From positions 1-49,376 of IMG/VR virus record IMGVR_UViG_3300032278_004242: a stretch of 49,376 nucleotides of DNA; one strand, 5' to 3'. Shown piece after piece: positions 1-48,140 of this stretch (positions are counted from its first letter, which is position 1; every line of letters begins with the position of its first letter). The translations under genes were made by a program, and so were the position numbers. The notes beneath the pieces are model-generated. The model saw only the letters and a list, made by a program, of their open reading frames with translations, searched no databases and was not told where the DNA came from. The stretch comes from a virus.

Positions 1-321
1 ATGAGCCAGGAGAACGAAGCCCTGAAACTGCTCGCGGCGCAGATCGAGAAGGCTAAACTGCGCAGCGGTCAAAGCTCGCTTGAGACGGCCGTCTACATGG
101 CGATCAAGATGGCGCCCAAGGCAATCAGGAAGGGCCTGTCCGCCCCCTATCCAAGCGAGAGCGATTCCGCTGCCAATGCGCTTACGGATCGCGTCCTTCA
201 GACGATCGAGGCGTGGCTGCTTCGTCAAGCTGACGATCGGCCTCCTCCGGCACCTTCCAGCGGCCGACATTTCGATCAAGACGCAGCCAGCGATCCAGCG
301 CAAAACAAGCCAGCAGGGTGA
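1..321 (+). CDS. Hypothetical protein at left edge
   Basis: This is an open frame of 106 codons whose first ATG is the first base of the window, so the true start may lie further left. Codon choice is GC-rich at third positions and the N-terminal two thirds looks like real protein: an amphipathic helix (KLLAAQIEKAKL) and a second helix (VLQTIEAWLLRQ). The C-terminal 30 residues are Pro/Ser/Asp-rich and probably disordered. I recognise no family. It is on the opposite strand to the phage lysis genes and converges on them, so it could be a prophage end gene or a host gene next to the left attachment site. No repeat of the tRNA-Trp 3' end is visible nearby to decide this. Confidence 0.5.
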   Translation: MSQENEALKLLAAQIEKAKLRSGQSSLETAVYMAIKMAPKAIRKGLSAPYPSESDSAANALTDRVLQTIEAWLLRQADDRPPPAPSSGRHFDQDAASDPAQNKPAG

Positions 322-400
322 TGCCCGCCAAGGCGAATGCCACGATTTGAGTTTGCACGCTGTCGGTCCCGGTTTCGACTGCGAAGCAGCCTAGCAGCTT

Positions 401-1036
401 TCATTCAGCTTCGACAGGCAGGTGGCCGATAATCAGCTCGATATCGGTCTGAGGGTTTCCGGTTCGGAATCGGTGATAGAATTTGGTCAGCGTCCCATGC
501 GCCGGTCGGCCATCCGGCGACACCCAATATTCCCTGACCATTAGCGGCTTGCGCGTGGTGTAGACTTCCATGTCATTTTCATAGAAGCCGCGCGCCACAT
601 CTTCAGGCCAGTACTCAAAATCGGTTTCGCCCACATACTCGAAGGGGCTGACTTCGAAGCGAGCGCGGTACTCGGCATCCATGCACACCATGCGAAATTC
701 AACGCTGCCGTCTGGCGTCATGTTTGCCGCCTTCACCCAGTTGAGCCCTGGCTGACTATTGAGGATCGAACAGACGAGGTCCTCAAAGCTGATGGTTTCA
801 TCAAGCGAGGCCGTCACCGATGCGAGCTCGATCCGAAGGGCCGTGTTTGTCGCCTGAAGCTCTCGATTGACCCGCTCAACCTCCGTCAGGCGCTCGTTCA
901 TGGATGCTGCGTAGTCAGGTCCGGCTGCGATCTTGCCGCCGATGAGAACCGCAGTCCCTGAAATCACCGCAACCATGATGTCGCGAAGCCATGGATTGCC
1001 GCGCATCGTTTCCATCATGCCGTGCTGATCAGCCAT
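401..1036 (-). CDS. Membrane-anchored PAS-domain protein in the lysis region
   Basis: The 211-residue product has three parts. There is one transmembrane segment at about residues 18-40, a heptad-like coiled coil at about 45-82 (MNERLTEVERVNREL), and a soluble domain at 83-206 that reads as a PAS fold. PAS hallmarks are a start like ILNSQPGLNWVK, then YVGETDFEYWPEDVA, then FYENDMEVYTTRKPL, then a KF strand and an IIGHLP end. An upstream ATG at 1060 lies directly behind a terminator T-run. The ATG at 1036 has GGAGAGG upstream and is preferred. It is the last gene of the leftward late operon, where phages usually keep the holin. The topology suggests a short cytoplasmic N-terminus and a periplasmic sensor, but I infer this. 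No enzymatic output domain is present. Confidence 0.75.
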   Translation of the reverse strand: MADQHGMMETMRGNPWLRDIMVAVISGTAVLIGGKIAAGPDYAASMNERLTEVERVNRELQATNTALRIELASVTASLDETISFEDLVCSILNSQPGLNWVKAANMTPDGSVEFRMVCMDAEYRARFEVSPFEYVGETDFEYWPEDVARGFYENDMEVYTTRKPLMVREYWVSPDGRPAHGTLTKFYHRFRTGNPQTDIELIIGHLPVEAE

Positions 1037-1061: not shown

Positions 1062-1101
1062 AAAAAGCCGGAGTTCCCGCTTTTGGGGCAACCCCGGCTT
1101 T
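1062..1101 (-). terminator. Rho-independent terminator upstream of the PAS gene
   Basis: Reading the minus strand, AAAGCCGG pairs with CCGGCTTT and is followed by a run of five T. Inside these arms GTT/CCC can also pair with GGG/AAC around an AAAA loop. It lies between the lipoprotein gene and the PAS gene, so late transcripts reaching the PAS gene must read through it or start inside the preceding gene. Confidence 0.75.
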
Positions 1102-1128
1102 CGGTTGCAGATCGTTACGAGCGGCGCA

Positions 1129-1725
1129 TCAGCCGTTCGCAACCCGCTGGACACAGAGTGCGGCCCGGTCGCGGGCATCCCTCAGAGGGGCCAGAGCCTC
1201 GATATACTGGTCGCGGTTGAGATCGTCGTCCTTGGTAAAGCCATCGATCATGCCGCCATCATTGTTGCCGGCGTATCGATCAACGGCCCGCCCCGCGAGA
1301 TACAGCGTCAATCCCGTTCGCGTGCCGAGGCCAAATTCGCCGGCCGCTGAGGCCAGCACACTCGGAAAGCGCTTCGATACAGCCTGGATCGATCCACGCT
1401 GGCATGTCCCGCCTGCGGCGGGGTCAGACTGAAGCGCGCCGTCGATGACGACGCAGGTCTCGGCAGACGTGAAATACTCTTCCGCCACTTCGATGACGGG
1501 CGGGGCATGCTGTACAATCGTCGCGGCCACATCCTGCGAGATGCCGCCTGCTTCACACAAAAGCGCAATCTCGTTGAGAGCGGCGGTGATGGCGCCCGAG
1601 GCTTCGACCGCAGCGGTGCGAGGTGTCTCGTCGCGGTCGAGCACCGAGAGCCTGGTCAGGCCGCTTGAACAGGCGGTCACGAATGGAATGGTCAGGAGCG
1701 CGATCAGCGCGATCAGGAATTTCAT
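1129..1725 (-). CDS. Putative phage lipoprotein, lysis region
   Basis: The 198-residue product begins with a lipoprotein signal: Lys3, a hydrophobic core (FLIALIALLTIPF) and the lipobox VTAC with Cys19 as the expected lipidated residue. It should sit on the periplasmic face of the inner or outer membrane. The mature part has four further cysteines (LLCEAG, ETCVV, GTCQR, ALCVQ), suggesting disulfides, and no family I recognise. It follows the endolysin gene with an AGAGGA ribosome site. Position in the lysis region makes a spanin-like or envelope role possible, but it is much larger than known outer-membrane spanins and lacks their proline-rich linker. Superinfection exclusion is an alternative. 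Confidence 0.65.
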   Translation of the reverse strand: MKFLIALIALLTIPFVTACSSGLTRLSVLDRDETPRTAAVEASGAITAALNEIALLCEAGGISQDVAATIVQHAPPVIEVAEEYFTSAETCVVIDGALQSDPAAGGTCQRGSIQAVSKRFPSVLASAAGEFGLGTRTGLTLYLAGRAVDRYAGNNDGGMIDGFTKDDDLNRDQYIEALAPLRDARDRAALCVQRVANG

Positions 1726-1806: not shown

Positions 1807-2400
1807 TCAAGCCGCAAGCGGCAGGTCCCGTGAATTGACCATCGCGCGGCCGTGACCGGTCGCGATCGCGGTCGCGAAGGTCGCGGTCTCGATCGTGCGA
1901 CGGCTCCAGCCGCCCTTGAAGGAGGCCCAGCCGCGCAGCTGCGAGTAGAAGGTCAGCCGTCGCCATGCGATCCGGTCGATCAGGTCGAACACGTTGACGG
2001 CATGCGCCGCCGCAACGGTCTTCGGCCCGATCGCGCCATCCTGGCGGATGCCGATCCGCGAGACGTCGAGGATGGATTGCTGCAGGATGATCGCGGCGCG
2101 ATGCGGCCCCGAATTGACACAGATATCGAAGACCAGGCAGTCGACACCACCGGGCAGATCATCGCCGCGCACCGGGTCCCAGTAGTTTTCGCGGTAGAAG
2201 GGCGTGATCTGCTCATGCGTGATGTTGCGCAGCTGCTCATCGGTCACGCTGTGCCCGACATAGGCTTCCCAGGCGCGCTTGGTGACGCCGTACATCGTGG
2301 CCCCGCCCGGGTCCATCGGATGCTTCGACCAGCCGCCTTCGTGCGCCAGTGTCGCCGCCAGAGCGAGCGCGAAATCCACCTTGATGACTGGCTCCGTCAC
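1807..2400 (-). CDS. Endolysin, glycoside hydrolase family 108 muramidase
   Basis: This is an N-acetylmuramidase that cuts the peptidoglycan glycan strand during host lysis. The GH108 signature is clear: AHEGGW with the expected catalytic Glu21, then DPGGATMYGVTKRAWEAY, and FDICVNSGPHRAAIILQ in the middle. The C-terminal 60 residues match the peptidoglycan-binding domain that usually follows in this family (RLTFYSQLRGWASFKGGWSRR). At 197 residues it is normal length. There is no signal peptide or membrane segment, so export needs a holin, yet no ordinary small two-helix holin is seen beside it. It overlaps the DUF1353 gene by 4 bases. Confidence 0.92.
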   Translation of the reverse strand: MTEPVIKVDFALALAATLAHEGGWSKHPMDPGGATMYGVTKRAWEAYVGHSVTDEQLRNITHEQITPFYRENYWDPVRGDDLPGGVDCLVFDICVNSGPHRAAIILQQSILDVSRIGIRQDGAIGPKTVAAAHAVNVFDLIDRIAWRRLTFYSQLRGWASFKGGWSRRTIETATFATAIATGHGRAMVNSRDLPLAA

Positions 2401-2951
2401 AGCCCGCCTCCCTTGCTGGCAAGCCAGGTCCGGCCGATCAGGCTGAGCGCCCGGAAGGCGGCCTTGCGGTGCGCGCCCCTGCCTTCGACCTGCTGCGGCT
2501 CGCGGCCCGTGGTCTTGCGGATCAGCTCAACATTGTCCGGATCGATCCGCGTGATCCGTTTCGGAAAGAAGCGGCGACCGAACTCGACACCGGCATAGGC
2601 AAAGAACCGGTGATGCGGCTCGACGCCGATGGCGCGCATCGCCCGCAGATAAAGGCTGTTGGCCTCCTTCAGTGTCAGCGTGCCGCTTTCCAGCGCCCAG
2701 TCGTGCAGCGCTGGCGGACCCCACCAGGCCGGGTTCTTCGGCTGGCGGTAGCGCAGCAGCCAGGGCAGGGAGTGAACATCGAAGACAAACCCCGCCGGCA
2801 CCTCGACGCCATCAAACCAGACCGGACGCAAGAGCTCCCATTCCGGTCGGCCCTGGCGCAGCGTGCCGGTTCGGCGAACGTCCTTGAAGCTCAGCACAAG
2901 ACCGGCTTCGACCTCGGCACTCGCCGGACGGACAGGACGCGGGCCCCACAT
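2397..2951 (-). CDS. DUF1353 family phage protein
   Basis: The 184-residue protein matches DUF1353, a small phage family found next to tail and lysis genes. Visible hallmarks are the PAGFVFDVHSLPW segment, PPALHDWALESG with its HD pair, and the following helix NSLYLRAMRAIGV, then the amphipathic FAYAGVEFGRRFF. Its biochemical function is unknown. The HD pair may bind metal, but that is inference. The gene overlaps the endolysin start by 4 bases, so the two are probably translationally coupled. Confidence 0.8.
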   Translation of the reverse strand: MWGPRPVRPASAEVEAGLVLSFKDVRRTGTLRQGRPEWELLRPVWFDGVEVPAGFVFDVHSLPWLLRYRQPKNPAWWGPPALHDWALESGTLTLKEANSLYLRAMRAIGVEPHHRFFAYAGVEFGRRFFPKRITRIDPDNVELIRKTTGREPQQVEGRGAHRKAAFRALSLIGRTWLASKGGGL

Positions 2952-6354: not shown

Positions 6355-7950
6355 CTAGTAACGCTGGATGACCACCGTTCCACCACCGCCGCCGCCGCCG
6401 CCGCCGCTGATGCCGCCGCCGCCGGTTGTGAAGATTGTTACGTCGAAACTGCGTGACGCTGATTTCCCGGCCCGGTTGGTGACCGTCGCGGTCATCCGGT
6501 AATTGCCGAGCTGGTTGGTCGGAATGGACAGGACGAGGCCGGAAACCGAGGTCAGGCCCGGCCCGCCGGTCACGGCCAGCGTCGGAGCCAGCTCATTGTC
6601 CGGCGTGTTCGGATCGTCGATGAACTGTCCGAGATCGACGACGATGGCCGACGCGCCTTGTTGGGCCACACGGTTTGGCGGCTGGGCGAAGGTTGGCGCT
6701 GGAGCCTCGGTGATCGTGAATTGCGATACGCGCTCCTGGAACTGGCCGTCATCGGCCTCGGCGCGCGTGATTACCTGATAGGTTCCGACCGCGCCGGGTG
6801 TGGCCGTCCCACCGCGCGAATTGCCGGTCACGGTGTAACCACTTCCGGCGGGCGTCACCGTCGCGGTGACAACCACGGGCTGTGCGCAATTGGCGAGGTT
6901 GGCGATGTCGTTCAGGTGATCGCGCGCCGGAATCGGGTTTCCTTCGACGACACCGAGATTCGGAATGCTTGCGAGTATCGGCGCTTCGGTCGGCGGATTT
7001 CCATCCTCATAGGCTTCGAGCCTCATTTCTGCATCGGCCGTGTTGCCGGACTCGTCGGTCACCCGGATGGTGACATCGACGCGGGCCACAATTGATGTGT
7101 CGACCTTGGAAATGATCTCGCCGCGGTCGCCACTCTGAGAAAAGCCAGCCGGCAGGGCATCGATCAGGGTGAAGGTCAGGTTTTCAGGCGGGCTGTCGGC
7201 ATCGCTCACATAGGTGTCGAGGTCGAAGACCTGTCCGGTCTGGGTCTGGTTGATGATCGCCACCGGCAGGCTGTCCCACACCGGCGCGGTGGTCGGGTGG
7301 AAGGTCTGGAGGCGACGCAGGACCGCCTCGGCGGCATTGAGACGCTGTTCAGCCGCGTCGACCCGCGCGTTCACATCCGTAATATCCTGGGCGCTGGCGG
7401 TGCCGGCGAAGGCGTCGAGGATGTTGGAATGGACCGACCAGCTGCCGGTCCCCTCGGCCCCGGATTTCCTGTAAATGACGAGATTCGTCATATCGATGCC
7501 AAAGGCACCGTCCGGCTGGCTCAGATCGGCCAGCAGAGCCGTATCGTCATCATAACGTTCGTTGAATGGCGCGTCCTCGGAGATCGCATCGACGATGGCC
7601 TGTGTCTGCGCGAGAACCGCCGCCTGGATGTCGGCCTCGAACTGGACAAGGTCGGCGGCGGCCTGCACATCGGCGACAGCGATCTGGTTCCACTGATAGC
7701 CGCCAGAGCCGTTGCTCGCGAGATAGAAGATCGTGCCGGACAGGTTTTCGGCGCTCGGAATCGGCGGATAGGATTCGCCCGCCAGTCCGATCAGGACCCG
7801 ATTCAGCATGTTGATCAGGTCGGTCCCGAAGGTCTTCTGAAGGGCCGCGAGCTCAGGCTCATAGAGCCCGCTTTCAGGGTCACCTTCCCGGTTGAACGTC
7901 CGGAAAAGCGAGCGCAGCTTTGTCTGAAGGTCGGTCAGGGCCTGATCCAT
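6355..7950 (-). CDS. Tail tip/fibre-associated protein with Ig-like domains and poly-Gly tail
   Basis: The product is 531 residues. Residues 1-200 are mostly helical and include VNARVDAAEQRLNAAEAVLRR, a coiled coil. Three or more beta-sandwich repeats follow, resembling phage Ig/cadherin-like modules (DTYVSDADSPPENLTF, TIRVTDESGNTADAEM, and later TNRAGKSASRSF). The end is a glycine run before the final TVVIQRY. It lies between the J-like tip protein and the S74 fibre, so it is likely part of the tip or adhesin complex; Ig-like domains in phages often bind carbohydrates weakly. The ribosome site is weak. Function is inferred from position and composition. Confidence 0.7.
   Translation of the reverse strand: MDQALTDLQTKLRSLFRTFNREGDPESGLYEPELAALQKTFGTDLINMLNRVLIGLAGESYPPIPSAENLSGTIFYLASNGSGGYQWNQIAVADVQAAADLVQFEADIQAAVLAQTQAIVDAISEDAPFNERYDDDTALLADLSQPDGAFGIDMTNLVIYRKSGAEGTGSWSVHSNILDAFAGTASAQDITDVNARVDAAEQRLNAAEAVLRRLQTFHPTTAPVWDSLPVAIINQTQTGQVFDLDTYVSDADSPPENLTFTLIDALPAGFSQSGDRGEIISKVDTSIVARVDVTIRVTDESGNTADAEMRLEAYEDGNPPTEAPILASIPNLGVVEGNPIPARDHLNDIANLANCAQPVVVTATVTPAGSGYTVTGNSRGGTATPGAVGTYQVITRAEADDGQFQERVSQFTITEAPAPTFAQPPNRVAQQGASAIVVDLGQFIDDPNTPDNELAPTLAVTGGPGLTSVSGLVLSIPTNQLGNYRMTATVTNRAGKSASRSFDVTIFTTGGGGISGGGGGGGGGTVVIQRY
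6386..6424 (-). repeat. CCG trinucleotide repeat encoding poly-glycine
   Basis: On the plus strand there are seven perfect CCG units (6386-6406), a short interruption and four more (6413-6424). On the coding strand this gives the glycine run at the end of the tail protein. Such a tract can gain or lose units without changing frame. Confidence 0.85.
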
Positions 7951-24553: not shown

Positions 24554-24932
24554 CCAGCATCTCCAATTCATCGAGATCGGCCGCTTCAAGCATCTGGTCG
24601 ACCAGCTCGACCTGTTCACGCTCGGCGCCCTCAAGCGGGTTGGCCGGCTTCACCGTGAGCTTGTTTGAGAAGCCCTCGACCCGGCGCTCCAGATAGAAAC
24701 GGGTCGCGTTCCAATCCTTCTTATTGAGGAGATCAACGAGGTTTCCGATGGCCATCGCATCGACTTTCTCTTTGCCGATCTGAAGCGCGACCTTGTAGTG
24801 CTGGTGCAGCGTCTTCGTGCTGATGCCGAGAATGGCGGCGATCTCCAATTGCTTCTTTCCGCCAGCAACGAGCGCCGCGATGTTGGCAGCAACCTGCGGA
24901 TCTGGATGGGTTGGTTCAGGGCCGGTCTTCAT
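24477..24932 (-). CDS. terS: Terminase small subunit
   Basis: The 151-residue protein has a DNA-binding HTH at residues 15-45 (VAANIAALVAGGKKQLEIA followed by ILGISTKTLHQHY), a helical oligomerisation part and an acidic tail ending in DEDEDRALTAN. This fits small terminases that recognise the packaging site. It begins with ATG at 24932 overlapping the upstream methyltransferase stop as TGATG, and overlaps the large subunit start by 77 bases. Confidence 0.88.
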   Translation of the reverse strand: MKTGPEPTHPDPQVAANIAALVAGGKKQLEIAAILGISTKTLHQHYKVALQIGKEKVDAMAIGNLVDLLNKKDWNATRFYLERRVEGFSNKLTVKPANPLEGAEREQVELVDQMLEAADLDELEMLDALIAKIGARQPGADEDEDRALTAN

Positions 24933-26146
24933 CACGCCAGCACCTTCGCCTTCGCCCGGGTCGCTTTCCGTCCCGTATAGTTCTCCCATCGCGCGACGAT
25001 CACATCACAGTAGGCCGGGCTGAGCTCTGCGCCATAGCAGACACGACCCTCCATCTCGCAGGCGATAAGCGTCGTGCCGGAGCCCAGGAAGGGATCGTAG
25101 ACCGCATCTCCCGGCTGGCTGTTGTTCAGGATCGGACGGCGCATGCACTCGACGGGTTTTTGGGTGCCATGCCCGTGCCCTTTGTCTTCGCGCGCCTTGA
25201 TGTTCCAGATGGTGGTCTGCGAACGGTCACCGCTCCAGTGCCCCTTTGATCCTTTGCGCACCACGTACCACGCTGGCTCATGCTGCCAGTGATAGTGGCC
25301 CCTGCCGAGGGTCATGCGATCCTTTGCCCATATCACCATCGCGCGGCGCTCAAAGCCGCCCTCTTCAAGCGATGCGATCACCACGTCCGTGAACATCGAG
25401 GCGTGCCATACATAGGCCACGTCGCCGGGGAACAATGCCCACGCCTCGCGCCAATCAGCGCGGTCGTCGTTTAGAACCTTACCAGCCTTCTGCTTGTTGT
25501 CGCTGGTGCGGGTTGGATCATACTCCACCCCATACGGCGGGTCCGTCACCATCAGATGAGGCGTCGATCCTTCGAGAAGAGCCGCCACGGTCGCCGCATC
25601 GGTGCTATCGCCGCAGATCAGCCGATGCTCGCCGAGCTGCCAGATGTCGCCCGCTTTGGTCTTTGGCTTGGCTGGCGGCTCCGGAACCTCCTCCGGATCG
25701 CCCTCGGCGTCCGGCTTGGTCAGGAACGAGACGCGACCCATATCGAAACCGGTCAGCGCCAGGTCGAAATCAAACCCCGCCAGCGCATTCATCTCGACCT
25801 TCAGCTTGGGCATGTCCCAGCCGGCATTTTCAGCAAGGCGGTTGTCGGCGATCACATAGGCCCGCTGCTGCGCTTCGCTCCAGCCCTTCGCTGTGATGGT
25901 CGGGACCTTGTCGAAACCGCGCTTGTGCGCCGCGAGCAGCCGACCATGTCCCGCTATAATCGTATCGTCGTCATTGAGCAGGATCGGATAGGTCCAGCCA
26001 AACTCGTCGAGGCTTCGCGCAATCTGTTCAACCTGCTCGTCGCTATGGGTGCGCGGGTTGTTCTCAAAGGGATTCAGATCATCGATCGGCCGCCAGACGA
26101 CCGTGTGATCGACGCCCCCCTTCTGATTTTCCTGTTTCTTGCTCAT
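24932..26146 (-). CDS. ParB-domain DNA N6-adenine methyltransferase
   Basis: The 404-residue protein joins a ParB/Srx-like N-terminal domain (DLNPFENNPRTHSDEQVEQI and IIAGHGRLLAAHKRG, residues 20-90) to a beta-class DNA methyltransferase. The catalytic TDPPYG is at residues 201-206 and the AdoMet motif DPFLGSGTT at about 351-359, in the reversed order of the beta class. A site-recognition region lies between them (MTLGRGHYHWQHEPAWYV). Such enzymes methylate adenine in phage DNA, usually to escape host restriction. No restriction enzyme accompanies it. It ends in the small terminase start. Confidence 0.92.
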   Translation of the reverse strand: MSKKQENQKGGVDHTVVWRPIDDLNPFENNPRTHSDEQVEQIARSLDEFGWTYPILLNDDDTIIAGHGRLLAAHKRGFDKVPTITAKGWSEAQQRAYVIADNRLAENAGWDMPKLKVEMNALAGFDFDLALTGFDMGRVSFLTKPDAEGDPEEVPEPPAKPKTKAGDIWQLGEHRLICGDSTDAATVAALLEGSTPHLMVTDPPYGVEYDPTRTSDNKQKAGKVLNDDRADWREAWALFPGDVAYVWHASMFTDVVIASLEEGGFERRAMVIWAKDRMTLGRGHYHWQHEPAWYVVRKGSKGHWSGDRSQTTIWNIKAREDKGHGHGTQKPVECMRRPILNNSQPGDAVYDPFLGSGTTLIACEMEGRVCYGAELSPAYCDVIVARWENYTGRKATRAKAKVLA

Positions 26147-31260: not shown

Positions 31261-32156
31261 GAGGGGTCTCCTTTCGGTTTGCGAGAGAGCGCTGCCTCGG
31301 CAGCGCTGACGGTGTTGGGGCGGGTTGAGGGGCGCGAGACCGCATCGGCCCGGGCAAGCCAGCAGATCCGGCTCGGCCCGCCATAGCCAGGAACGAAGAC
31401 GACCCAGCAATAATCGATGGCCCCGTTGGCGGGCTTGTCGCCCTTGCGCCATTTCAGCTTGAGCGTCCCGTCGGCGAGCTCCCTGGGTGCCGGGTCATCG
31501 CAATTGAACAGCCCGGTCTCAGGATCGATGAACGCACCGGGCGGCATGCTCGGACGGTTGGAGAGGACGTGGACGCGGGCAGGCGCGCCGATCCGCTCGA
31601 AGAGGTCGAACCGCGCCTGGGAGGCGAGCCACTTCAGCGGCACAAGGAAGGCGGCCGAGCTGCGAACATGCAGCAACGCCGTCTCGACGAACTCGGCGGT
31701 CAACGAGTATGGCGGGTTGCAGACGATGTGGTCGACCGTGTCGATATGACCGGGCCTGACCTTCAGGAAATCGATCTGGGCCGCGTTCGGACGCCGCGCG
31801 ACATCGCTGGAGATGATCGGATAGTTCCGCGCTGCGAAGGCACGCTCGATGGTCCGATGCCCGCAGGCCGGGTCCCATACCCTTCCAGCATAATTCTCCG
31901 CGTCGATCAGAAGATCGACACACCAACGCGGTTCGACATACCAGTCACCCTCCGCGCGGCTATAGCCCAAGTTCGGGTTCGGAGCCGGATTGCCCGCCTT
32001 GGCCGCTATGTCCGCAGGATCGGCAAGCGCGGCAACGCTCTCCCCTGCCCCCGGCACGGCGTTGACCTCATCAGAGGCAGGCGGGCCTTGTTTTACCAGT
32101 CCGTCCGGAGCGGCATTGGTTGGCATTGCCAGGGATGTGCTTGAAACTCTTGTCAT
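31257..32156 (-). CDS. DNA N6-adenine methyltransferase-like protein
   Basis: The product is 299 residues. The first 70 are low-complexity. The class I methyltransferase core then begins with VWDPACGHRTIERAF (AdoMet motif I) and continues to VCNPPYSLTAEFV, the NPPY catalytic motif of N6-adenine enzymes. The rest is a shorter target-recognition part (ASQARFDLFERIGAPARVH). It is coupled to the C5 methyltransferase gene by a 4-base overlap. The two probably protect the phage genome from different restriction systems, but specificity is unknown. Confidence 0.85.
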   Translation of the reverse strand: MTRVSSTSLAMPTNAAPDGLVKQGPPASDEVNAVPGAGESVAALADPADIAAKAGNPAPNPNLGYSRAEGDWYVEPRWCVDLLIDAENYAGRVWDPACGHRTIERAFAARNYPIISSDVARRPNAAQIDFLKVRPGHIDTVDHIVCNPPYSLTAEFVETALLHVRSSAAFLVPLKWLASQARFDLFERIGAPARVHVLSNRPSMPPGAFIDPETGLFNCDDPAPRELADGTLKLKWRKGDKPANGAIDYCWVVFVPGYGGPSRICWLARADAVSRPSTRPNTVSAAEAALSRKPKGDPS

Positions 32157-33802
32157 GGCGCCACCCTATGGGCGCTCGCGGCGTGTACACTTTCGGCGGA
32201 ATCCAGCGCATCGACAGCAGCGATCCGCTCACCGATCCACCGCATCACGTTAACAGCCATGGAATTGCCGAGCGCCTTGTATCGTGGACCGTCCGGGTCC
32301 TGAACGCGCCAGGTGTTGCCCTTGAGGCGAAGGTTCAGTCCGAGCGCTTCAAGCGCTTCAACCGACTCTTCAGGATCGACATCGCGCCAGCCGCCTTTCG
32401 ACGCACCAGGAACGCGCGTGTAGTTATCTGGAAAGCCTTGCAGGCGTTCGCATTCAAGCGGCGTGAGCCGGCGAACTGCCCACGTCTGCGAAACCAGCGG
32501 GATACCGCGACCAGTCCCGTCTTCCGAGGCATCGAACCCCTCGCCTCTCAGGGCATGAGCGACGTAGCTGTCCTGATCAGCGGCATGACTTGAATTGTGT
32601 TTAGCGAGCAAAGAATGAGCGACCGCTAGCTGTCCGCCAGCATTGGCATGGCTGTCTCCATGCCCCATCGCCCGCATGGTCGGGGCAGCGTCCTCGATCG
32701 CATCTGCGCCGTTATCCTTGCAAGAGAACGCAACATAGGTCTGCTGCTTCACGCCGGGTTCCGCCGCCAGCGCTCCTGAGACATCCATCTCGCGAACCTC
32801 TTCGCGCTGGTTCTGCGCGAAAGCGACATAGGAGCGGCTGGACCCACCAGATCCGGCACGGATGTTTGCCGTCTCATGCGGGCCTTCAAATTGCGAGCCC
32901 TCGTCGCGACCGCGAAGATCATACGCCACGGCCTGAACCTTGTTTCGGGCCTCCAGCGTGTAGGCAGTCCCGTCACTACGAAAGCCTGAGCCTTGCGGAC
33001 CACTGTCGGGATTGTCGCTAACCGATCGTTCCTGAATGGCGACAAGATTCTGACACTCGTCTCCGGCAGGCCCCCCAGAGCCTTTCGCCCACTTGCTAGA
33101 GACCGTCCCGTCGCCGGGACGGTCTGAGGCGATCAGCCCTCCGTCGCAGTCAAAGTCGGTTCCGAGGCCACCACCGCCTGTAGGGCGCGCGCTAATTGTT
33201 GGGGCAGCGATTTTCCCCGCTTCTCGGCGCGGCGCAGGATTCCGGAGCAAGCCTTCGCGCTCAAGAAGTACCGCTGCGGCACGTCGCCAGTCTCCAAGAT
33301 ATCCGACAAGGAACACACGCCTCCGTCGCTGCGGGACGGCACGCTCGTGTGATTCCACTCGGACATATTGAGCGTCAAGAACTCGGTAGGCGAACCCATA
33401 CCCGAGTTCTGCCATCCCTCCGAGGATGGCGCCAAAGTCCCGTCCTTCATTTGATGACAAGACGCCGGGAACGTTTTCCCAAACGATCCAGCGGGCGCGT
33501 GTTCTTTGAGCAAGTCGGCAAAACTCAAGGGCCAGGTTGCCACGGTCGTCATCCAGTCCACCTCTGAGGCCGGCGATGGAGAAGGACTGGCAGGGGGTTC
33601 CTCCGACAAGAAGGTCAACTGGTCCATACTGATCGCCCTCAATTGTGGTGAAGTCGCCATGCAACGGCACATCCGGATAATGATGTTTTAGGACACCGCG
33701 CGGGAAGGCCTCGATCTCGCTAAACGCGGCAGGCGTCCATCCAAGCGGATGCCATGCGACGGTTGCCGCCTCTATGCCGGAGCAGACTGAAAGATAACGC
33801 AT
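32153..33802 (-). CDS. DNA C5-cytosine methyltransferase with repetitive insert
   Basis: The 549-residue enzyme has all main motifs: SVCSGIEAAT (AdoMet site, residues 5-14), GGTPCQSFS with the catalytic Cys71, WENVPG, and QRRRRVFLVG at 158-167. Closing motifs are RRLTPLECERLQGFPDNYT and KALGNSMAVNV. Between motif VIII and IX, about residues 190-440, lies a long insert with short repeats around VAY, VAF and VAH. It starts at ATG 33802, overlapping the upstream stop as TGATG. It probably gives anti-restriction protection. Confidence 0.93.
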   Translation of the reverse strand: MRYLSVCSGIEAATVAWHPLGWTPAAFSEIEAFPRGVLKHHYPDVPLHGDFTTIEGDQYGPVDLLVGGTPCQSFSIAGLRGGLDDDRGNLALEFCRLAQRTRARWIVWENVPGVLSSNEGRDFGAILGGMAELGYGFAYRVLDAQYVRVESHERAVPQRRRRVFLVGYLGDWRRAAAVLLEREGLLRNPAPRREAGKIAAPTISARPTGGGGLGTDFDCDGGLIASDRPGDGTVSSKWAKGSGGPAGDECQNLVAIQERSVSDNPDSGPQGSGFRSDGTAYTLEARNKVQAVAYDLRGRDEGSQFEGPHETANIRAGSGGSSRSYVAFAQNQREEVREMDVSGALAAEPGVKQQTYVAFSCKDNGADAIEDAAPTMRAMGHGDSHANAGGQLAVAHSLLAKHNSSHAADQDSYVAHALRGEGFDASEDGTGRGIPLVSQTWAVRRLTPLECERLQGFPDNYTRVPGASKGGWRDVDPEESVEALEALGLNLRLKGNTWRVQDPDGPRYKALGNSMAVNVMRWIGERIAAVDALDSAESVHAASAHRVAP

Positions 33803-34338
33803 CAGCCCCTGCCCCCCATCCTCGCCATGGCGATATCGTCGCGGCGCATCCGCCATTCTCCGAAGGCTCGCGGGTCACGAAACGAGATCGCGGTCAGGAA
33901 GACGGCGACCGCATCGGCTTCGTCATGGTCGCCGGTCTCAACGCCCCAGCCGCGGATAAGGCCGACCGCCCGCTTCTTCTTCTCGGCGCTGGACAGGCCG
34001 CCATCGCCATAGATCAGCTTCTTCATGGTCGAGTTGTTGACTTCGCAGCATGTGATGCCGGTCTGGACGGCCACCCGTTCGACCATGCCGGCAAGCGAAT
34101 AGAGCTTGCGCAGCGTGATCAGGTTGGCCGCCCGGAAAGGCCGCACCGGCTGTTCAAAGGCGATCAGGTCGACACCCTCACAAAGCCCGGTCATCCACCG
34201 CTCGAAATGAGCCAGCAGCTTGCCGATCTCGTCGCCATAGCGCGGGAAAGCATGGGAGCCGGTCGCAACCGGCCCCCCAGCCTCGCCCTTGCACCAGCCT
34301 GTCCGGCTGGAGCTTGTATCGAGCGCGAGCACGATCAT
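33802..34338 (-). CDS. RuvC-like Holliday junction resolvase
   Basis: The 178-residue protein has the RuvC/RNase H fold signature: MIVLALDTSSSRTGWC with first Asp, IAFEQPVRPFR with the Glu, and a late GDHDEADAVAVF with the other acidic residues. It cleaves branched DNA, which suits clearing recombination intermediates before packaging. It is coupled to the next gene by a 1-base overlap and to the previous one by 4. Confidence 0.88.
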   Translation of the reverse strand: MIVLALDTSSSRTGWCKGEAGGPVATGSHAFPRYGDEIGKLLAHFERWMTGLCEGVDLIAFEQPVRPFRAANLITLRKLYSLAGMVERVAVQTGITCCEVNNSTMKKLIYGDGGLSSAEKKKRAVGLIRGWGVETGDHDEADAVAVFLTAISFRDPRAFGEWRMRRDDIAMARMGGRG

Positions 34339-44119: not shown

Positions 44120-44712
44120 CCCCACAAGCCTTCCCCCTCACATGGCCCAGTTTCCGGAAGCGGACCCACTGGAGCGACCGCCAGCGCGGCGAGTTCACGC
44201 ATGACAAGAAACGGATCAGGATTCCGGAAGCGGCCGAACGGCTGGAGCTGGAGGTCGAACGTCTCGGCGGCGTCAACCTCGTGATCTCAACCGACATCAA
44301 GCCGACGATCACCGGACGGCCCGCCGCCAATCAGGGTGAGCCCGCAGATCCCGGCGTGGCCATTTATTTCACACTCGACGGCGACCCGATCACGCTCGCC
44401 TGCGACACCTATGAGAGCGTCGCTCAGAACCTTGCGGGCCTCGCCCAGCATATCGAGGCGACCCGCCGGATCGAGCGCTATGGCGTCCAGAGCGCCAAGG
44501 AGACGCTGCAAGCTTTCGCTGCGCTACCGCCTCCGTCCGGTTCGCGACATTGGCGCGACGTGCTGGGCCTGCCTCAAACGGCATCAGCTGCGGACGTGAA
44601 GAACCGCCGCCGCGAGCTGGCCGCAAAGCATCACCCGGACAAGGGCGGCTCTCCTGAGCTGCTCGCCGAAATTAACGCCGCCGCTGACCAGGCGCTGAAG
44701 GAGCTGACATGA
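44116..44712 (+). CDS. Phage J-domain (DnaJ-like) protein
   Basis: The product is 198 residues. The last 60 residues are a J domain: RHWRDVLGLPQTASAADVKN, then LAAKHHPDKGGSPELLAEIN, with the HPD motif at 173-175. The N-terminal 130 residues (FRKRTHWSDRQRGEF, GVAIYFTLDGDPITLACDTY) form an unknown domain found in other such phage proteins. J domains recruit DnaK, so it may direct host chaperone to a phage complex. Overlaps on both sides are 4 bases. Confidence 0.82.
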   Translation: MTPQAFPLTWPSFRKRTHWSDRQRGEFTHDKKRIRIPEAAERLELEVERLGGVNLVISTDIKPTITGRPAANQGEPADPGVAIYFTLDGDPITLACDTYESVAQNLAGLAQHIEATRRIERYGVQSAKETLQAFAALPPPSGSRHWRDVLGLPQTASAADVKNRRRELAAKHHPDKGGSPELLAEINAAADQALKELT

Positions 44713-44891
44713 TCATCGCTTACATCGCCGCCGCTCTGATCGGACTTCTCGGCTTCATGTTCTGTTTGGGCGCTCTCGTGGGCCTCAATTCGGTCACGAC
44801 GAAATGGCCTGAAGTCACCGCGAATGGCTTCGCGTGTCTCTTTGGGGCCGGTCTGCTGACTTTGGCGCTTCACGTTGCGGGGCTGCTATGA
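44709..44891 (+). CDS. Small two-helix membrane protein
   Basis: The 60-residue protein is nearly all hydrophobic, with helices IIAYIAAALIGLLGFMFCLG and FACLFGAGLLTLALHVAGLL joined by a short polar turn. This size and topology resemble a holin, but it sits far from the endolysin in the early operon. It could alter the membrane during induction or exclude other phages. Overlaps support it as real. Confidence 0.65.
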   Translation: MIIAYIAAALIGLLGFMFCLGALVGLNSVTTKWPEVTANGFACLFGAGLLTLALHVAGLL

Positions 44892-46772: not shown

Positions 46773-47002
46773 CCGCCCGCCAGCCCTCCCGCCCCCAGAT
46801 TGTCTGCGCGGCGATCAAGGAGATCGTCGGCGCCGGCATGCGGCCGCGCATCATCTGCCTCGCAGACGGATCGATCGAGGTCGAGGCCTTGCCTATGGAC
46901 AGCGGGCTGGTTCCGAGCCTTGATAGCGGCGCCCGGAAGGCGGGCAATCTGATCGAGGGAGCGTTTGGTGGGAAACAGGCGTCCGGACATGGAGCCGATT
47001 GA
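46769..47002 (+). CDS. Small hypothetical protein before integrase
   Basis: The product is 77 residues, with IVCAAIKEIVGAGMRPRIIC at the start and a Gly-rich end that overlaps the integrase start. This is the place for an excisionase, but I see no winged-helix or MerR-like pattern to support that. It overlaps the preceding gene as ATGA. Confidence 0.55.
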   Translation: MTARQPSRPQIVCAAIKEIVGAGMRPRIICLADGSIEVEALPMDSGLVPSLDSGARKAGNLIEGAFGGKQASGHGAD

Positions 47003-48140
47003 ATATACCCGGGTGGTGAACGGCGTTCGCTACTGGGAGCCGTCGAAGAAGCTGCGGGCGCTCGGCTTCAAGCCGAAACACTGGCCCGACGACGCGGAGG
47101 GACGCGAGAAAGCCCGCCTGGAGACAGCTAAGGCCAAGAAGGCCAAGGAGACGCGTCAGGCCGCGCCAGCCTACCGAGAAGGCTCTCTCGCGCATTTCTG
47201 GCACCATTTCCGCGCCCGTCTCTGGGATCGCGTCGAACACCGCGAGATCGCGACACGCACGGCCGAGGAGTATGACATTGCCTGGTTGCGGATCGGCCCA
47301 GCCCTCGGCGACACGATCATCACCGACATCACGCCAGACCACATCACCGACTTTTACCGCGATCTCGGCCGCGATCACTCACCGCGCACCCGTCACCGGG
47401 CCATCGCCAAGTTGCGGGCCATCCTTCAGGATGCGGTTGCCCGCCGGGTGATCCCCGTCGATCCGACGCAGCACATCCGCAACAGGAAACCGAAAGCCCG
47501 CCAAGCCTTTTTTGCGCCGGAGGAGATCGCGCTGATGGTTCAAGCCGCCGCCGACCTGTCGATGACCTCGATGTCGCTCTGCATTCGTCTCATGTACGAA
47601 ACGGCCCGCGCCCCGGTCGATGCGCGCAACCTGAACGAAGGCGCGCTCTGCGTGTCGCCTGAAGGGCCATATATCGACCGCGCGCGAGAGAAGACCGGCG
47701 TCGATGGCTTCCAGGCGATCAGCCAGGAGCTCTATGACGACATTCTCGCCTATATCGCCTCGCTGGGCGTCAGCCTTCATCCGGACGCGCCGATCTTCCG
47801 CCGGCATGCTCCGCCGATCCGCAAACGCCGGAAAGTCGCACCATGGAAGGACTCAGACGAGTTCGCGCGAGACTTCGCCATCGTCCGCGAGGCCGCGCTC
47901 GGCGAAGACGAGACCCGCCGCGCGATGGACATCCGGCGGACAGCCAACCTCGAAGCCGCGCTCGGAAACGCCAGCCCCGAAGATCGCGCCGCCCTGCTCG
48001 CCAACGGCCTCGACAAGGACAAGTCGCTCGATGCCGTTTACACCCCGCCGACGCTGATTGCGGCCCGCAGAGCCAACGCAGCGCGAGTAGCCGGAAGGCA
48101 GATGATAAGCTCGGCGCAGGCCAAAAACGGAACGGTTTGA
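46968..48140 (+). CDS. int: Tyrosine recombinase integrase
   Basis: The integrase of about 390 residues has an N-terminal arm, a SAM-like core-binding domain (ATRTAEEYDIAWLRIGPALG then HITDFYRDLG) and a catalytic domain. TARAPVDARNL holds the first Arg, REKTG the Lys, MDIRRTANLEAAL the second Arg, and LDAVYTP the Tyr. The two usual histidines are not visible: Met stands in the HxxR place, and the second site reads LANGLDKD. GTG 46968 follows GGGAG closely; ATG 46989 is an alternative. It is the last gene of the rightward operon and is adjacent to tRNA-Trp, its likely target. Confidence 0.9.
   Translation: MGNRRPDMEPIEYTRVVNGVRYWEPSKKLRALGFKPKHWPDDAEGREKARLETAKAKKAKETRQAAPAYREGSLAHFWHHFRARLWDRVEHREIATRTAEEYDIAWLRIGPALGDTIITDITPDHITDFYRDLGRDHSPRTRHRAIAKLRAILQDAVARRVIPVDPTQHIRNRKPKARQAFFAPEEIALMVQAAADLSMTSMSLCIRLMYETARAPVDARNLNEGALCVSPEGPYIDRAREKTGVDGFQAISQELYDDILAYIASLGVSLHPDAPIFRRHAPPIRKRRKVAPWKDSDEFARDFAIVREAALGEDETRRAMDIRRTANLEAALGNASPEDRAALLANGLDKDKSLDAVYTPPTLIAARRANAARVAGRQMISSAQAKNGTV

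Follow-up and report, generated by a model that had tools for sequence, protein, structure and literature searches.

Late genes at the left end of the window

The stretch of DNA analysed here, referred to as the window, is a whole record of 49,376 bases (IMG/VR virus record, IMGVR_UViG_3300032278_004242). Its late genes run leftward and encode, in this order, a tail spike with an S74 chaperone, a 110-aa ORF, a DUF1353 protein, a GH108 endolysin, a lipoprotein and a protein with a PAS domain (P0001). The features that matter for what follows are these:

401-1036, minus strand: P0001, a TM, coiled-coil and PAS protein of 211 aa, with an ATG start
923-979, minus strand: single TM helix of P0001, residues 20-38, mean hydropathy 1.94
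800-916, minus strand: coiled-coil helix of P0001, residues 41-79, one long helix in the AlphaFold model
404-754, minus strand: PAS domain of P0001, residues about 95-211, from Pfam PAS_4 and the PAS fold of the model
1063-1102, minus strand: near-perfect hairpin with T5 that separates the lipoprotein gene from the PAS gene and is probably an intrinsic terminator
1129-1725, minus strand: lipoprotein of 198 aa, lipobox LLTIPFVTAC near residue 19
1807-2400, minus strand: endolysin, GH108 and PG_binding_3 (97 and 27.4 bits)
2397-2951, minus strand: DUF1353 protein (named tail assembly chaperone in PHROGs), encoded upstream of the endolysin gene
182-358, minus strand: possible single-TM ORF of 58 aa, 42 nt downstream of the PAS gene
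44709-44891, plus strand: two-TM ORF of 60 aa among the rightward early genes, with good codon bias
46965-48140: phage integrase

The window is probably a prophage, as it carries the integrase gene, a tRNA-Trp, a gene for a CI-like repressor with an S24 peptidase domain and, at its right edge, a sulfotransferase gene; no attachment-site repeat shared by its two ends was found. Additionally, there are two DNA methylase genes on the minus strand (24932-26146 and 32153-33856), one for an N6/N4 methylase whose N-terminus has a weak ParB-like match, the other for a C5-cytosine methylase.

The ATG of P0001 is preceded by the ribosome-binding-like GGAGAGGG, and a second in-frame ATG, at 1060, was judged a less likely start. 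An initial annotation of this DNA had described the protein as one TM helix, a coiled coil and a PAS-like domain with no output domain, and hydropathy, the helix in the model, the Pfam match and the fold all agree with that description. PAS_4 is matched over 114-193 with 24.8 bits (the cut-off is 23.1) and is the sole domain match; the PAS domain ends the protein, and no kinase, DNA-binding or other output domain was found. In the AlphaFold model the TM segment appears as a helix of low confidence at residues 15-33, and the PAS elements follow one another as E-E-H-H-H-H-E-E-E. The model matches solved PAS domains: a Foldseek search returned 91 PDB matches at E<=1e-3, the best 50 of the 91 being PAS/LOV proteins, and the VIA-align Z scores were 13.1 for the PAS domain of BvgS (6zj8), 11.3 for VqmA and 11.1 for the VqmA of phage VP882.

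The neighbours are also as first described. The endolysin, which matches the phrog_315 endolysin of PHROGs (E 3e-44), has neither a TM nor a signal helix, and the lipobox identifies the next product as a lipoprotein, for which no known family was found in Pfam or PHROGs. Two features had escaped the initial annotation, namely the terminator that precedes the PAS gene and the small TM ORF next to this gene. The hairpin folds with -40.7 kcal/mol over a 94-nt stretch (z -3.44, with 0 of 200 shuffles as stable), and a simple terminator scan did not list it. Its orientation fits the ending of late transcription, so that the PAS gene likely lies just past a terminator and would be expressed by read-through, by antitermination or from its own promoter; a simple sigma-70 scan showed no promoter for it.

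An ordinary holin is likely lacking near the endolysin, as the initial annotation had noted, and this holds for the vicinity of the endolysin rather than for the whole phage, in a record that begins at base 1. The claim is weakened by the presence of two small TM ORFs. The one downstream of the PAS gene has a TM hydropathy of 2.12, a weak codon bias and a GC3 of only 0.58, and it overlaps ORF 1-321(+) on the opposite strand. The other, in the early region, may encode a holin-like or another small membrane protein.

Relatives of P0001 and the genes beside them

Relatives were sought with the PAS protein as the query, and the endolysin was not used. No relatives were obtained when viral and genome contigs were scanned with the P0001 sequence alone. 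A tblastn search of annotated phages reached the Chryseobacterium jumbo phages MA9V-1 and MA9V-2, and from these the crAss-like Cellulophaga phage phi14:2. Further IMG/VR contigs were found with a degenerate DNA pattern of the PAS core, and a structure search added two divergent members, in phages phi18:3 and phi19:1. The proteins with this TM-coil-PAS build thus form a family that is found in unrelated phages, and all 14 relatives match PAS_4. The closest relative found for P0001 is encoded by a marine phage contig (G063/L154), with 32% identity over 100 residues and an insertion after a WVK motif that resembles the one in P0001; its gene is the last late gene before convergent early genes. 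Nine PAS residues are invariant across the family (P96, W100, K102, Y123, Y134, G136, D139, D155 and K185), and in the model of one relative (L107) a continuous helix, 34-97, enters a PAS domain whose pLDDT is mostly 87-96.

Outside these phages the short build was not recovered. A family-alignment search of genome contigs gave 26 loci without it, all of them for long PAS proteins save one truncated ORF, and 385 alphaproteobacterial genomes gave no match at 1e-9 in a search that had no positive control. Soluble PAS proteins of L100/L105 and of Brevundimonas jumbo phages were discarded as members, since the N-terminal TM is absent and no annotated lysis gene is adjacent. In the Brevundimonas phage Kikimora (L085, 4953-5868), the gene for a soluble PAS protein overlaps one whose product is a coiled coil ending in a TM, and L157 and L158 are similar; these pairs, with PhoH and tRNA genes rather than annotated lysis genes as neighbours, are possibly the same parts divided between two genes.

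The order GH108 endolysin, lipoprotein, TM-coil-PAS protein is repeated in MA9V-1 and MA9V-2; in MA9V-2 it is followed by a TM protein and a lipoprotein with a C-terminal TM, and MA9V-1 is alike. In phi18:3 the genes after that of the PAS protein gp090 (family HMM E 3e-11) encode a multi-TM protein and then a GH108 endolysin. With other enzymes, the PAS gene of phi14:2 extends into the start of a GH19 endolysin gene, and the PAS gene lies directly before peptidase M15_3 in G056/057 and G059 and directly before DUF5675 in G051 and G060. In G050 it overlaps the gene for a lipoprotein with a C-terminal TM, and an integrase is close by.

Altogether, the PAS gene is found within three genes of a wall enzyme in 8 of 14 lineages (GH108 three times; otherwise GH19, M15 and DUF5675), that is, in the window, where a terminator intervenes, and in seven others. 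This location in a lysis cassette is one expected of holins. A ninth lineage adjoins a spanin-like lipoprotein, and the remaining five (G054/61/62, G055, G052, G063 and phi19:1) lack both a wall enzyme and a spanin-like gene in the vicinity; the lysozyme of phi19:1 sits further from the PAS gene. If a chance of 6 positions per 50, 70 or 100 genes is assumed, the binomial tail is 7e-5, 5e-6 or 4e-7, and it is 3e-4 to 3e-6 when the window is left out, in a test that is rough because near-identical contigs were collapsed into lineages by eye and several contigs are fragments. The initial annotation had allowed that homologues might always lie outside lysis regions, and these counts speak against that.

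PAS domains are not a general property of GH108 phages, as PAS_4 (PF08448) was found in none of 48 GH108 phage records. A small TM protein is the usual companion of this enzyme, being present within three genes in 29 of 32 GH108 neighbourhoods with complete flanks, and in the window it is the PAS protein that fills this place. Since GH108 phages are generally without PAS_4 and the enzymes are various, the association is one of the TM-coil-PAS protein itself, whatever the enzyme type, which would be expected of a membrane protein in a lysis cassette. A check of 13 genes in phi14:2 found just two that encode TM proteins, one for the PAS protein (g078), annotated merely as a 'PAS fold protein', and one for the spanin-like g076. 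Other TM proteins that adjoin the PAS gene are holin candidates too (phi18:3 gp091, the 80-83-aa proteins of G056/57/59 and MA9V gp250).

Some of these loci have peculiarities of their own. In MA9V-2 (L082, 2845-3943) the ORF for GH108 has only 140 aa, and the end of the lipoprotein ORF resembles the missing GH108 C-terminus (phrog_315 residues 183-219, E 0.005), as though the lipoprotein sequence had entered the endolysin gene by insertion or fusion. The DUF5675 proteins that follow the PAS gene (L112, 649-1257; L121, reverse complement, 7089-7505) have an H-x-G ... G-C pattern that recalls L,D-transpeptidases, and they may be the wall-active lysis enzymes of those phages. Finally, in L115, L122 and L123 the TM-coil-PAS gene lies amid structural genes, before scaffold-like and capsid-like genes and with no lysis enzyme adjacent; in L112 the set of PAS, DUF5675 and spanin-like genes occupies the corresponding place.

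Topology and candidate signals of the PAS domain

In most relatives, the TM is preceded by 4-13 residues with 0-1 K/R among them and followed by a flank with 2-5 K/R. By the positive-inside rule, this distribution predicts an N-out/C-in topology for most of them, with the PAS domain in the cytosol. The TM flanks of P0001 itself are balanced in charge (2 K/R before and 1 after), so that its own topology is ambiguous. Small residues are abundant in the TM helix, with IGGKIAAG in P0001 and GGGxGAFL in many relatives.

The initial annotation had suggested that the protein responds to a small-molecule or redox signal, and here the family gave no backing. When the family profile was compared with the PDB, the only significant matches were to VqmA (E 1e-5), in which DPO binding depends critically on F67, F99 and K101 (PMC10426928). 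In the family, F67 and K101 correspond to invariant residues (F151 and K185) and F99 is replaced, and the F and K equivalents are also common in ordinary sensor-kinase PAS domains. DPO sensing through F67 and K101 was therefore dropped as a candidate, and no ligand can be named from pocket residues that are shared with generic kinase PAS domains. Similarly, 9 of the 14 members are matched in their coil-PAS region by the ArcB model of NCBIfam (best E 2.5e-7). ArcB uses cysteines, and ArcB-type redox sensing was rejected because the family alignment has no conserved cysteine.

These comparisons nevertheless place the family among known proteins. Sensor kinases of the ArcB/BvgS type have a TM, a coiled coil and a cytosolic PAS domain, as is predicted for most of the P0001 family, but P0001 lacks their kinase domain. 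VqmA, which is both bacterial and encoded by phage VP882, provides the closest PDB PAS domain by family profile and is a phage PAS protein linked to lysis. However, VqmA is a soluble transcription factor for the lysis-lysogeny decision with a C-terminal HTH DNA-binding domain, whereas P0001 is anchored in the membrane, is encoded among lysis genes and has no such domain.

A probable role in the control of lysis

As regards holins, P0001 has the size and TM count expected of them, as a small TM protein of 211 aa with one TM helix. No match to the holin models of Pfam, NCBIfam and PHROGs was found. The T4 holin T has a single TM, takes up a signal through a globular domain and, like P0001, is a small TM protein of a lysis region. 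By contrast, P0001 has no Phage_holin_T match (PF11031 is also missing from the records of 16 relatives), the predicted topology of its family is the opposite, and it has a putatively cytosolic PAS in place of a periplasmic domain; T was not among the structural matches listed for its model, a result compatible with kinship. Another small TM protein of a lysis region is the holin gp11 of phage D29, whose C-terminal coiled coil affects oligomerisation and lysis timing (PMC9671378). Additionally, two PHROGs labelled 'hol-like chemotaxis' (phrog_2658 and phrog_8369) match the TM and coiled-coil half of several members (family best E 8e-8; residues 4-90 in L107), but these families are short, have no PAS in the matched span and carry a putative function label. 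Neither Pfam, PHROGs nor NCBIfam gives a lysis name to the whole TM-coil-PAS protein, and searches of the open-access literature turned up no account of a PAS protein with a holin or in a lysis cassette, nor anything relevant on a Cellulophaga phage with PAS and endolysin.

We lean towards reading P0001 as a lysis-control membrane protein with a PAS sensor in the cytosol, which is either itself a holin or acts directly with one. The likely terminator ahead of the gene, the five lineages lacking lysis-type neighbours, the other TM proteins found next to it, the balanced charges of P0001 and the missing match to holin families count against this reading. The same kind of protein adjoins different wall enzymes in several unrelated phages, which suggests that it probably helps to decide when the infected cell lyses. 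With the PAS fold confirmed and relatives of the same build recurring beside endolysins, the link to lysis proposed in the initial annotation has become much stronger than a single locus suggested, but the ideas that the protein senses redox or small molecules and that it forms the hole by itself gained no support.

Beginning from the adjacency and the architecture, which are observed, we infer sensing, signal transfer and membrane opening as follows. Late in infection, coiled-coil dimers of the protein would accumulate in the inner membrane, their N-termini facing outward and their PAS domains in the cytosol. A bound ligand, the energy state or dimer contacts could change the state of the PAS domain, and the change may travel via the continuous helix to the glycine-rich TM helix, where it would promote or restrain clustering. 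Clustering, in turn, would set the moment at which the membrane opens for the signal-less endolysin.

The PAS domain might instead be only a dimerisation module, P0001 then being an ordinary single-TM holin or holin partner that senses nothing. PAS domains frequently act as dimer interfaces, the coiled coil of D29 gp11 is a precedent for oligomerisation and timing (PMC9671378), no ligand-specific residue was seen in the family PAS, and that of phi19:1 gp108 is degenerate. We consider this unlikely, as several PAS residues are invariant, more than a plain dimer interface needs.

Next to this comes the proposal that the gene is a moron or a host-interaction gene, whose product sits in the membrane as a decoy for host sensor kinases or excludes other phages, its position at the end of the late region being fortuitous. 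The window gene does lie past a terminator and near the prophage edge, that of G063 is the last late gene, that of G050 is close to an integrase, and the PAS and coil resemble ArcB in the nine members mentioned above. Ranked second among the alternatives, it too seems improbable, because the association with wall enzymes is far above chance, the PAS gene overlaps the following lysis-type gene in phi14:2, G060 and G056/57, and the order to which phi14:2 belongs is not thought to be lysogenic (PMC10136315). Finally, an inner-membrane spanin subunit with an unusual C-terminal domain, which a TM and coiled coil adjoining a lipoprotein recall (compare Rz/Rz1), is very improbable, since for most relatives the positive-inside rule predicts that the coiled coil and the PAS domain are cytosolic, and separate spanin-like lipoproteins with a C-terminal TM adjoin the PAS gene in several phages.

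Within the preferred reading of P0001 as a lysis-control protein, it is possible that this lysis-cassette membrane protein with a sensor domain is a sensory holin. In its fullest form, which we put forward tentatively and with some doubt, a single-TM, N-out/C-in holin of crAss-like, jumbo and other Bacteroidota phages and of the window prophage would read a host metabolite, redox or energy signal with its cytosolic PAS domain and trigger lysis without transcription.

Holins are usually viewed as timers driven by their own accumulation, and the T4 system is, to our knowledge, the main case in which an outside signal shifts the moment of lysis. If a lysis-cassette membrane protein does carry a cytosolic sensor, the physiology of the cell would act directly on the timing of lysis, downstream of all gene regulation. 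The isolated relatives phi14:2, phi18:3 and MA9V-1/2 make a role in lysis testable, and the PAS protein is a candidate holin for phages such as phi14:2, in which no other holin is seen near the endolysin.
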